From Oryzomonas sagensis (GTDB lineage: Bacteria > Desulfobacterota > Desulfuromonadia > Geobacterales > Pseudopelobacteraceae), in NCBI RefSeq assembly GCF_008802355.1, contig NZ_VZRA01000003.1, positions 114,196-178,195 on the forward strand: a stretch of DNA of 64,000 nt, in the 5' to 3' direction. A program made the position numbers and the translations under genes. The stretch's first letter is position 1; every line of letters starts with the position of its first letter. The notes beneath the pieces were generated by a model. The model saw only the letters and a program-made list of their open reading frames with translations, had not been told where the DNA came from and made no database searches. Below are positions 55,736-58,429 of the stretch, one piece after another.

Positions 55736-57085
55736 ATGGGTGTTCTGATGCAGGCGTTTTACTGGGATTGCCCCCGGGAGGAGGCTCAGGAATATACGTG
55801 GTGGAAGTTCCTCGCCGCCAAGCTCGGCGGGCTTGAACAGGCCGGCTTTACCGCTCTCTGGCTCCCGCCTGCCGGCAAGGCCGCCAACATCGGCGGCATG
55901 TCCATGGGGTATGATGTCTACGACTATTACGACCTGGGAAGATACCCGCAAAAGGCGCTGCGCAAGGTCAACGGCGTTGACGAGGTAAGAACCTGGTTCG
56001 GTTCGGAAGAGGAGTTGCGCGCCCTGATCAGGGCCGCGCACGGCTGCAACCTGAAGGTCTATGCCGACCTGGTTCTCAACCACAACAACGGCGCCGACCA
56101 GCAGGAATTCAACCCGATCCTGCAAAATTACCGCTGGACGAAATTCACCCCCCAAAGCAATCGCTTCACCCGCGACTGGACCTGCTTCAATCCCTCTCCC
56201 TACACCGAGAACGACCCCGCCGCCTTTGGCGGGATGCCGGACCTGTGCCACATCAATCCCCGTGTCTCCACCGGTATCCTCAACCACGCCAAGTGGATGA
56301 TCGAAGAGATCGGTTTTGACGGCTTCCGCTACGATTTTGTCAAGGGGTTCGGCGCCTGGATCGTGCGGGCGATTCACGACCGCCAGTACAGCCGCGGAGG
56401 GCAGCCGGTGTCTCTCTTCGGGGTGGGGGAGTGTTGGGCCGGAGACGATTTCATCGACAGTTGGCTCGATTCGGTCAACAACTGGGCCGTACACCGGGTT
56501 GGAGCCTTTGATTTCCCGCTGCGCTACCGGTTGAAGGATCTGTGCGATACCTACGGCTTCAGTCTGCGGACCCTGGCGGACGGCGGCGTGCTGATACGGG
56601 ACCGCCCCCACGAGGCGGTGAGCTTTGTGGATAACCATGATTTCAGCGGCAACGACTGCGTGGTGAACGACAAGATGCTGGCCTACGCCTATATCCTCAC
56701 CCACGAGGGATACCCGTGCGTCTTCTGGAAAGACTATTTCAACTACGGTCTGGCCCGACCCGGCGAGCCGGACGGGATCGAACGGCTGGTCAAGGTGCAC
56801 GAGAGCCATGCCGGGGGCGGCACGGTCATCCGCTACGTGGACGACCTGCTGTACGTCATGGAACGCGCCGGCATTGCCAGTCAGCCGGGGCTGCTCTTTG
56901 TCCTGAACAATTCCGGGGGCTCCCTCGGCAGGCGGGTGCAGTCCGGTTTCGGAAACACGACGCTGAAACCCCTGGCCTGGGGCGGCCAGGGTGCCATCCC
57001 CCAGCCGCCCGCGACCGCCACCGACAGTGGAGGATGGTGTCTGGTCGAGGCGCCGCCGCGGGGCTATGTGGTGTACGGGGTGTGA
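55736..57085 (+). CDS. Alpha-amylase family (GH13) enzyme
   Basis: 449 residues; GGGGAGGGAC before the ATG. No signal peptide, so it is cytoplasmic. The four GH13 regions are intact: I YADLVLNHNNGAD; II GFDGFRYDFVKGF with the nucleophile Asp; III SLFGVGECWAGDD with the acid/base Glu; IV VSFVDNHDFSGND with the transition-state Asp. It probably cleaves internal glycogen or maltodextrin. The C-terminal beta domain is short. No glycogen genes are next to it. Confidence 0.92.
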   Translation: MGVLMQAFYWDCPREEAQEYTWWKFLAAKLGGLEQAGFTALWLPPAGKAANIGGMSMGYDVYDYYDLGRYPQKALRKVNGVDEVRTWFGSEEELRALIRAAHGCNLKVYADLVLNHNNGADQQEFNPILQNYRWTKFTPQSNRFTRDWTCFNPSPYTENDPAAFGGMPDLCHINPRVSTGILNHAKWMIEEIGFDGFRYDFVKGFGAWIVRAIHDRQYSRGGQPVSLFGVGECWAGDDFIDSWLDSVNNWAVHRVGAFDFPLRYRLKDLCDTYGFSLRTLADGGVLIRDRPHEAVSFVDNHDFSGNDCVVNDKMLAYAYILTHEGYPCVFWKDYFNYGLARPGEPDGIERLVKVHESHAGGGTVIRYVDDLLYVMERAGIASQPGLLFVLNNSGGSLGRRVQSGFGNTTLKPLAWGGQGAIPQPPATATDSGGWCLVEAPPRGYVVYGV

Positions 57086-57148: not shown

Positions 57149-57177
57149 TTGACAAATTCTCCGCGGCTGTGATTTAG
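57149..57177 (+). promoter_or_regulatory. Promoter of the DAHP synthase leader
   Basis: A perfect -35 TTGACA at 57149-57154. The -10 falls around 57171-57177 (GATTTAG), a weak match. Initiation would be near 57183, only a few bases before the leader-peptide ATG 57186, with no room for a ribosome site. Confidence 0.55.
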
Positions 57178-57185
57178 TACCAACC

Positions 57186-57272
57186 ATGAATTCGAATCGT
57201 TTCTTTAGCGCCTTTTACTTTTTCTTTTGGTACGGCTTTTATTTCAGGCCGTCTGCCCGGGCAAAGGTGTAA
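57186..57272 (+). CDS. Aromatic leader peptide (attenuation of DAHP synthase)
   Basis: A 28-residue frame: [20 protein letters not shown] then RPSARAKV. It holds 8 Phe, 3 Tyr and 1 Trp, 12 of them within 15 residues. Such enrichment is expected for a ribosome-stalling leader like those of pheA and pheST in enterobacteria. It lies directly before an intrinsic terminator and the first gene of aromatic synthesis. Bases 57251-57260, which code for its last residues, can pair with the 5' arm of that terminator. It has no Shine-Dalgarno sequence. Confidence 0.85.
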
Positions 57273-57302
57273 GCGCAAGGAAGCGAAACCATTACACACC
57301 AC

Positions 57303-57336
57303 AAGCCGGGTGGACAGACAGTCCCCCGGCTTTTTT
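57303..57336 (+). terminator. Attenuator terminator before DAHP synthase
   Basis: The stem is AAGCCGGG (57303-57310) with CCCGGCTT (57325-57332), extended by GGAC/GTCC around AGACA, followed by a T6 run. It lies 30 bases after the leader-peptide stop and 73 before the structural gene. Confidence 0.9.
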
Positions 57337-57409
57337 GTTTGCCGCAGCAGATGCGGACAGGGCCGGGGGGAAACCTTCGGCCCTTTTGCTTGTGGGAAAG
57401 GAACTGGGG

Positions 57410-58429
57410 ATGATCATCGTAATGAAGGCTGGCGCGGCAAAGAAGGACATGGACGAGGTGTTGAAGCGCATCAAGGAATTGGGCTACATGCCCCATGTGA
57501 TCCACGGCTCGACCCGGGATGTCATCGGGGCGGTGGGGGACGAGCGGGGCAAGATGGTGTTGCACTCCCTTGAGTCGCTGCACGGCGTTGAAAACGTGGT
57601 GCCGATCCTGCAACCGTACAAGTTGGCCTCCAAGGAGATCAAAAAGGAGTCGAGTGTCGTGCGCATCAACGATGAGGTGTCTATCGGCGGGGAACGGGTG
57701 ATCATGATGGCCGGTCCCTGTTCCGTTGAAAACGAACGGCAGATCGTTGAAACGGCCGAGGCGGTGAAAAAGGCGGGGGCCTCCATTTTGCGGGGCGGAG
57801 CATTCAAGCCGCGCACGTCGCCCTATTCGTTCCAGGGGTTGGAGGAGGAGGGGCTCAAGCTGTTGGCCAAGGCCCGGGAGGTGACCGGCCTGCCGTTCGT
57901 AACCGAGGTGATCAATCCCGAAACCGCCGAACTGGTGGCGGAATACTCCGACATCCTCCAGATCGGCGCCCGCAACGCGCAGAATTTCGCGCTCCTGAAA
58001 AAGGTGGGCCAACTCGGCAGGCCGGTTTTGCTGAAACGGGGCATGTCCATGACGATCCAGGAGTTTCTCATGAGCGCCGAGTATGTCATGAGCGAGGGGA
58101 ACCAGTCGGTGATCCTCTGTGAACGCGGCATCCGCACCTTCGAGACCGCCACCCGCAACACCCTCGACCTTTCAGCCGTGCCGGTGCTCAAGGAAAAGAC
58201 CCATTTACCGGTGGTGGTGGATCCTTCCCACGGCACCGGCAATCATCACTATGTCGCCCCCATGTGCTATGCCGCTGTGGCGTGCGGAGCCGACGGCCTG
58301 ATTGTCGAGGTCCATCCCGATCCGGAGCATGCCTCCAGCGACGGGCCGCAATCGTTGAAACCGGCAAAATTCCAGGCGATGATGGACAAGCTGCGCTTGT
58401 TCGCCGAGGCGGCGGGAAGAACTCTGTAG
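57410..58429 (+). CDS. aroF: 3-deoxy-7-phosphoheptulonate (DAHP) synthase
   Basis: 339 residues from ATG 57410 (GGAAAGGA upstream). First step of the shikimate pathway: PEP plus erythrose 4-phosphate to DAHP. Residues 1-70 are a ferredoxin/ACT-like N-terminal domain ([20 protein letters not shown]), as in the Thermotoga-type enzyme, usually the site of Tyr/Phe feedback. The barrel has [53 protein letters not shown] and [18 protein letters not shown] (metal and PEP sites). It is preceded by an aromatic leader peptide and terminator. Confidence 0.96.

Follow-up and report, generated by a model that had tools for sequence, protein, structure and literature searches.

In Oryzomonas sagensis, aromatic amino acid synthesis would be controlled at its first enzyme, in our reading and with a probability a little under 90%, by a ribosome-mediated transcription attenuator responding to the charging of Phe-, Tyr- and Trp-tRNA. 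Its elements lie in a window of 64,000 nt (the whole stretch of DNA that was analysed), where a 28-codon reading frame with 8 Phe, 3 Tyr and 1 Trp codons, just as counted in the original prediction, is followed by mutually exclusive antiterminator and intrinsic terminator structures, conserved with covariation, and by the gene for a type-Ibeta DAHP synthase. A Phe/Tyr attenuation module in front of DAHP synthase had been predicted; the kind of element and its target were right, but the description has to be widened: the leader has a Trp codon as well, which suits it to Phe, Tyr and Trp alike, and a second hairpin lies downstream. That hairpin (57359-57384) and a 1:2 hairpin (57232-57238/57246-57252) are additions to the elements then described. 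The features, in window coordinates, are as follows.

57149-57154, + strand: -35 element TTGACA (from the TTGAC[AT] spacing in class leaders)
57172-57178, + strand: -10-like ATTTAGT
57186-57272, + strand: leader peptide ORF, 28 codons, ATG 57186, TAA 57272, probably leaderless (sequence, conservation)
57232-57252, + strand: hairpin 1:2 (57232-57238 with 57246-57252), protector of segment 2 (folding, class pairing)
57251-57260, + strand: segment 2, GUCUGCCCGG, antiterminator strand (folding, pairing across leaders)
57266-57270, + strand: 5' arm of the inner stem, GGUGU, extending into the leader stop codon (pairs with 57296-57300)
57296-57300, + strand: 3' arm of the inner stem, ACACC (folding, own-versus-swapped fit)
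57303-57338, + strand: terminator 1 (T1), the 3:4 hairpin 57303-57332 with its U-tract (folding, covariation)
57306-57315, + strand: segment 3, CCGGGUGGAC, partner of segment 2 or 4 (folding, covariation)
57321-57332, + strand: segment 4, GUCCCCCGGCUU, partner of segment 3 or 5 (duplex energies, prefix folding)
57359-57384, + strand: T2 (5:6), second terminator-like hairpin, longer form 57353-57389 (folding)
57359-57370, + strand: segment 5, 5' arm of T2
57374-57384, + strand: segment 6, 3' arm of T2
57397-57403, + strand: ribosome-binding site AAAGGAA of the DAHP synthase gene (sequence)
57410-58429, + strand: type-Ibeta DAHP synthase (aroF/aroG-2 type), ferredoxin-like plus catalytic domain (NCBIfam PRK08673/TIGR01361, Pfam PF18152 and PF00793, Thermotoga DAHPS structure 1rzm)

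The leader reading frame and the start of the transcript

Among the 342 ORFs of 15-60 codons counted from the first ATG on both strands of the window, the leader ORF has the highest aromatic fraction (0.43, the next being 0.31): a short frame rich in end-product codons, placed 5' of a biosynthetic gene. A consensus scan returned no promoter at the leader, though TTGACA is plain by eye. TTGAC[AT] occurs 29-32 nt 5' of an in-frame ATG in 72 of the 97 class leaders, these 72 being the members of the order and the remaining 25 belonging to other families of the class, and a Shine-Dalgarno-like string lies ahead of that ATG in just 3 of the 72. For the other 25 leaders, such a string precedes some in-frame start in 20 of the 24 that could be scored, a looser count that uses a different start-codon set from the 72. 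The spacing from promoter to ATG and the rarity of Shine-Dalgarno-like strings make a leaderless start probable in the order, where the leader ORF would begin at or a few nucleotides from the transcript start. A precedent is trpL of Sinorhizobium meliloti, the Trp attenuator of trpE(G), whose leader ORF lies at the extreme 5' end of the mRNA (accessible text of PMC7298713); for the leader described here, the leaderless start is predicted from promoter spacing.

The gene behind the leader and its paralogue

The DAHP synthase encoded 3' of the leader is 100% identical to that of O. japonica Red96. These genomes carry a second DAHP synthase, 54% identical to the one behind the leader, and no such leader was found within 600 nt upstream of this paralogue in 12 of 12 cases; an unrelated GTG-started short ORF at -518 passed the aromatic filter upstream of one of them. 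Identity to the Thermotoga DAHPS was tried as a guide to the Geobacter counterpart and dropped, the values for the two own genes (50.9% and 52.0%) giving no discrimination.

Alternative pairings of the leader RNA

The strong terminator expected after the leader frame is present as the 57303-57332 hairpin with its U-tract, and a competing pairing exists as had been proposed. Its bulged form reaching 57315-57319 is not preferred, however: folding favours a continuous 10-bp helix (57251-57260/57306-57315) that includes two G-U pairs and is complemented by the inner stem. The proposal that a stalled ribosome leaves the antiterminator strand free, while one at the stop codon covers it, agrees with the codon geometry: given the usual footprint of a ribosome, one holding codon 15-18 in its A site exposes 57251-57260, and at the stop codon the same ten nucleotides are covered.

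In the nascent prefix 57241-57326, its 5' part held back as by a stalled ribosome, the probability of 2:3 is 0.81. Once segment 4 is complete (RNA to 57342) the equilibrium fold is T1 in every masking state, and once segment 6 has been transcribed (RNA to 57395) it is T1 plus T2 in every masking state. Folding with and without segment 2 blocked, the check first suggested, cannot tell the states apart at equilibrium: RNA containing the whole terminator folds into T1 even without its 5' part. We accordingly rejected equilibrium folding with blocked segments as a test of state; it does not separate the states, and the antiterminator is seen in nascent prefixes only. As the full-length equilibrium folds are alike in every state, the switch must be kinetic. 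Kinetic control is usual for attenuators.

We propose that RNA polymerase would start at or beside the leader AUG with a ribosome following. With aromatic tRNAs charged, the ribosome would reach the stop codon and cover segment 2, so that 3:4 would form terminator 1, 5:6 would form T2 and transcription would stop. When an aromatic tRNA is short, the ribosome would stall at codons ~10-18 and cover segment 1; 2:3 would then pair, the freed segment 4 would pair with segment 5, and polymerase would read through into the gene. Sequence comparison establishes the ORF, the pairings 1:2, 2:3 (with its inner stem) and 3:4, their conservation and the target gene; the stalling, the termination, the leaderless start and the response to starvation are what we infer. 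In the enterobacterial pheA, pheST and trp attenuators the ribosome stalls at Phe or Trp codons and the same 1:2/2:3/3:4 logic applies; the leader described here differs in mixing Phe, Tyr and Trp codons and in having DAHP synthase as its target.

Conservation and covariation in the class

The DAHP synthase orthologue is full length in 37 of 39 related genomes, fragmented in G007 and not found in G016. Conservation of the leader frame and its pairing in relatives, on which the original prediction had been made to depend, is borne out, with the leader in 37 of the 38 orthologue upstream regions and the pairings kept. At L008 (G018), an orthologous DAHP synthase (88% identical) lies without a leader behind a response-regulator-like reading frame. 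R1, a covariance model built from the 37 leaders, matches 238 of 277 class genomes at E <= 0.1 (E-values for this model and for the broader R2 are rough, from a shortened calibration), mostly with one copy per genome; 170 of 187 good-quality class genomes and 77 of 82 genera are matched. The 39 class genomes of the 277 without an R1 match include some incomplete ones, and searches over more than 40 genomes used stricter filters, by which weak matches are lost. When 98 loci were searched again, 97 matched, and DAHP synthase lies 3' of the leader in all 97 (identity 68-100% among the matches listed).

Across these class leaders (97, of which 95 are distinct), 3:4 is paired in 84.4% of cells and the four core pairs of hairpin 1:2 are formed in 97.9% of cells (95 distinct leaders), with a joint covariation score for 1:2 and 3:4 of 0.193, where slid partners reach no more than 0.089. 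The 2:3 helix is paired in 98.6% of cells, chiefly through invariant pairs and G-U changes, and shows little covariation by itself because it hardly varies. Taken together with the inner stem, its count of both-sided changes is reached by 245 of 500 shuffles and its covariation score by none of 500. The inner stem occurs as GGUGU/ACACC, GGUUUG/CAAACC, GGUCUG/CAGACC and GGUUCG/CGAACC, and a leader's own arms fit at 4.75 of 6 against 4.44 for swapped arms (sd 0.057). By these alignments, the covarying pairs are those that leader-peptide attenuation requires.

An RNA core found beyond the class

Judged by sequence comparison, the family is larger and older than the reading of a single genome could show. 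In the sampled phylum, which from the organism names we take to be Desulfobacterota, R1 matches 64 of 297 genomes at E <= 0.1 and the broader R2 matches 168 of the 297 at E <= 0.01, often in several places per genome. We characterized by tblastn the gene downstream of 60 R2 places, chosen among the best-scoring matches listed and mostly omitting loci already fetched (L334 repeats L132): DAHP synthase Ibeta in 24, ADTH synthase in 15, a periplasmic binding protein in 7, DAHP synthase Ialpha in 2, phenylacetate-CoA ligase in 1, an aminotransferase (25% identity) in 1 and a gene outside the seed families in 10. Of these 10, 4 are shikimate kinase, 2 (L381 and L386) are by eye apparent shikimate kinase/chorismate synthase operons, and 4 received no family assignment, one of them stopping at a contig end. 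ADTH synthase catalyses the first step of an alternative entry into the shikimate pathway; the leader now stands 5' of its gene, so it would have stayed in place while the enzyme was exchanged.

The core GUCUGCCC precedes two DAHP synthase families, ADTH synthase, shikimate kinase, PaaK and binding-protein genes. Among the 49 R2 places where a GUCUGCC-like core could be placed (11 of the 60 were unplaceable by script), it lies in frame 0, 1 or 2 in 20, 14 and 15 cases, and since it is read in all three frames (RPSAR, VCP, GLP) it is conserved as RNA and not as peptide. Across phyla (45 sequences, alignment A4), 3:4 has a covariation score of 0.409 against at most 0.231 with slid partners, and 58 both-sided changes against 20 in shuffles; 2:3 is 95.8% paired with hardly any variation, its observed values being attained in 30-49 of 500 shuffles. 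In a named collection of 80 loci, R1 matches 39 at E <= 2e-5, all within L198-L236. Reading the 41 loci outside that range by eye gave a leader in 7 of 9 Methylomirabilota/Rokubacteria loci and in L265, and none was recognised in the other 31, L266 having merely 112 nt of upstream DNA; the Rokubacteria leaders came from inspection of the DNA 5' of the genes, and R1 scores none of these loci below E 0.1.

The chances are about even that all these leaders represent one ancient module, a general aromatic attenuator of Desulfobacterota and Methylomirabilota built on the near-invariant core and on a six-segment relay with two serial terminators, in which the frame, the peptide specificity (Phe, Tyr, Trp, perhaps Ala) and the enzyme have changed, including from DAHP to ADTH synthase. 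The regulator seems to outlive its enzyme, and a regulator-guided search for isofunctional enzymes thereby becomes testable.

The second hairpin and competing explanations

Segment 4 is complementary to segment 5 as well as to segment 3, and this ability of the 5' arm of T2 to pair with the freed 3' arm of T1 suggests a his-like relay of six segments with two terminators. The Salmonella his attenuator likewise has a leader peptide with control codons, six segments, readthrough through B:C plus D:E and an E:F terminator (accessible text of PMC4046918); the leaders described here differ in that 3:4 itself has a U-tract in most of those examined, which gives two terminators in series, and in their aromatic codons and a core sequence kept widely in the phylum. 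The 4:5 pairing and a role of T2 have some support, weaker than that for the pairings upstream. In RNA reaching 57372 with the 5' part held to 57240, as in the stalled state, the minimum-energy fold is 2:3 plus 4:5 (p ~0.97). In the same prefix 4:5 is also favoured when the ribosome is absent (p 0.93) or sits at the stop codon (p 0.92), and it belongs to the minimum-energy fold under all masking states except one, so that at equilibrium it does not single out the stalled state.

A leader's own 4:5 duplex is stronger than one between swapped partners, in comparisons uncorrected for relatedness: -18.7 vs -17.0 (sd 0.21) in 97 class leaders, -18.4 vs -14.5 (sd 0.57) in 28 distant leaders and -19.5 vs -17.3 (sd 0.42) in the 41 of 60 phylum leaders whose T2 is -12 or better; for the 22 distant leaders with T2 <= -12 the values are -20.6 vs -16.6 (sd 0.62). 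In the distant set T1 was placed from aligned segments, and the T2 of L250 is still misplaced.

A plain four-segment attenuator of the trp/phe type, in which control needs no more than 1:2, 2:3 and 3:4 and T2 acts as a leaky second terminator or stabilises the mRNA 5' end, is a serious contender, if somewhat short of even odds. The lack of stalled-state specificity of 4:5 at equilibrium speaks for it, as do the poor U-tract of T2, which has 3 U in the 8 nt behind its long form in this genome and is likewise poor in many class members, and the unlike T1 and T2 stems with poor 4:5 pairing in some class families (L168 -8.0, L172 -5.2, L174 -5.7). Several class members and 6 of 28 distant leaders have a weak T2 or none, and 5:6 is not the sole terminator in this genome, where 3:4 has a good U-tract. 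The phylum gaps can be read the same way: 41 of 59 have a hairpin of -12 or better, and so do 45 of 118 intragenic windows; at -17 or better the counts are 26 of 59 and 17 of 118. Against the four-segment explanation, T2 in the class lies far above chance, the T1-to-gene gap containing a hairpin of <= -17 kcal/mol in 88 of 97 leaders and 34 of 194 equal-size windows inside genes. Moreover, T1 has no U-tract in L377, L378 and L390, where that of T2 is clear, nor in six Rokubacteria leaders, where by eye the T2 tract is clear in L250, L254, L257 and L258 and weak in L255 and L276; in these leaders T2 is the sole possible terminator, and its control via 2:3 needs 4:5. If the six-segment relay is true, attenuators can be extended by a second terminator while ribosome control persists, and its wiring, like the leaderless start, would be a new variant.

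Two further explanations, both of which we consider very improbable, depart from tRNA sensing or from attenuation. Nascent TnaC senses a free amino acid in the exit tunnel, and the peptide FWYGFYF might likewise arrest the ribosome by binding a free aromatic amino acid there, tRNA charging not being sensed. The region around FW[YFCS]G is indeed strongly kept inside the class, but the W and G codons conserved there fall within the 1:2 helix or next to it, so that RNA pairing can explain them, and leaders of other classes have the residues scrambled (FYFYYFF, GYYYYGYL, FFAFFSFFGFF) with the RNA core unchanged. Alternatively, CsrA or a similar protein could control translation by binding GGA in the T2 loop or at the ribosome-binding site, the ORF being secondary. 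In the part of PMC11934962 available, mRNA of GSU3142 (aroG-2, a candidate orthologue) is 3.6-fold up in a G. sulfurreducens csrA mutant; the T2 loop, however, varies in sequence and length, GGA is not always present, and the covariation matches attenuator logic. CsrA control could be an added layer on the attenuator. The mRNA of G. sulfurreducens aroG-2 (GSU3142) is also up in a gsu1771 mutant (accessible text of PMC10599522). We tried and dropped T2 as a genome-wide repeat, with 21/18 pattern matches against 17/16 in the control.

In one genus (g22), loci L154, L184, L160, L179 and L148 keep the ORF and the core and retain the second hairpin, and their T1 is weakened, with a poor or absent U-tract and a reduced stem.

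Relation to described elements

At gathering score, Rfam release 15 finds only tRNAs in the window; between 57100 and 57450 at E <= 10 it gives 8 chance-level matches, with no leader family, T-box or amino acid riboswitch, and it has no matching family in 10 related loci. In 2009, conserved stretches of 192 and 272 nt 5' of aroG-2, the Thermotoga-type DAHP synthase gene, in two Geobacter species (Gmet_R0069/GSUR082) were listed as a 'predicted short RNA element', in a section that names no leader peptide, attenuator, structure or mechanism (available part of PMC2700814); matched by description, they are very probably the same element. The uORFC-13-1 motif of Acholeplasma, likened here by description, combines a terminator with a short ORF containing Phe codon(s) 5' of the aroF DAHP synthase gene, with 24 examples from one genus and environmental sequences (accessible text of PMC8632094). 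Within open-access articles other than preprints, among them the available parts of PMC11109978 and PMC2965389, no attenuator before DAHP synthase was found for Geobacter, Desulfobacterota or Methylomirabilota. The attenuator would broadly explain the switching of aromatic synthesis in bacteria of the Geobacter-like and sulfate-reducing kinds, and its covariance models offer a means of annotating leaders overlooked until now.

Related leaders at other genes

Among secondary matches whose anatomy was read by eye (the L309-L322 group), L309, L314, L318 and L322 have Phe-rich leaders with a related core 5' of phenylacetate-CoA ligase genes, named by family in L309 and by likeness in the other three; their sequences suggest that Phe supply may control arylacetate assimilation at these loci. 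L317 and L321 have leaders with a YYYY run (GYYYYGYLRRSAL) 5' of binding-protein-like genes, which are candidate Tyr-regulated transporters.

The genome studied here has a second attenuator-like leader outside the window (L324, G000:C1:1202921-1202990; R2 E 0.0018), consisting of an Ala-rich ORF (MFTTMITAIAAARAISAAASDAAGVSSAR), a UCUGCCC/GGGCAGA core and a terminator, followed by a PLP aminotransferase; TTGACG lies 32 nt 5' of its first ATG. The L324 DNA is matched in 13 of 20 genomes, in some over only 30-45 nt, and the Ala-rich ORF is present in 10 of 10 loci read. Inside the window, a geopeptide radical SAM maturase (TIGR04280, 54114-55409) lies just 5' of an alpha-amylase-like gene (55736-57085).
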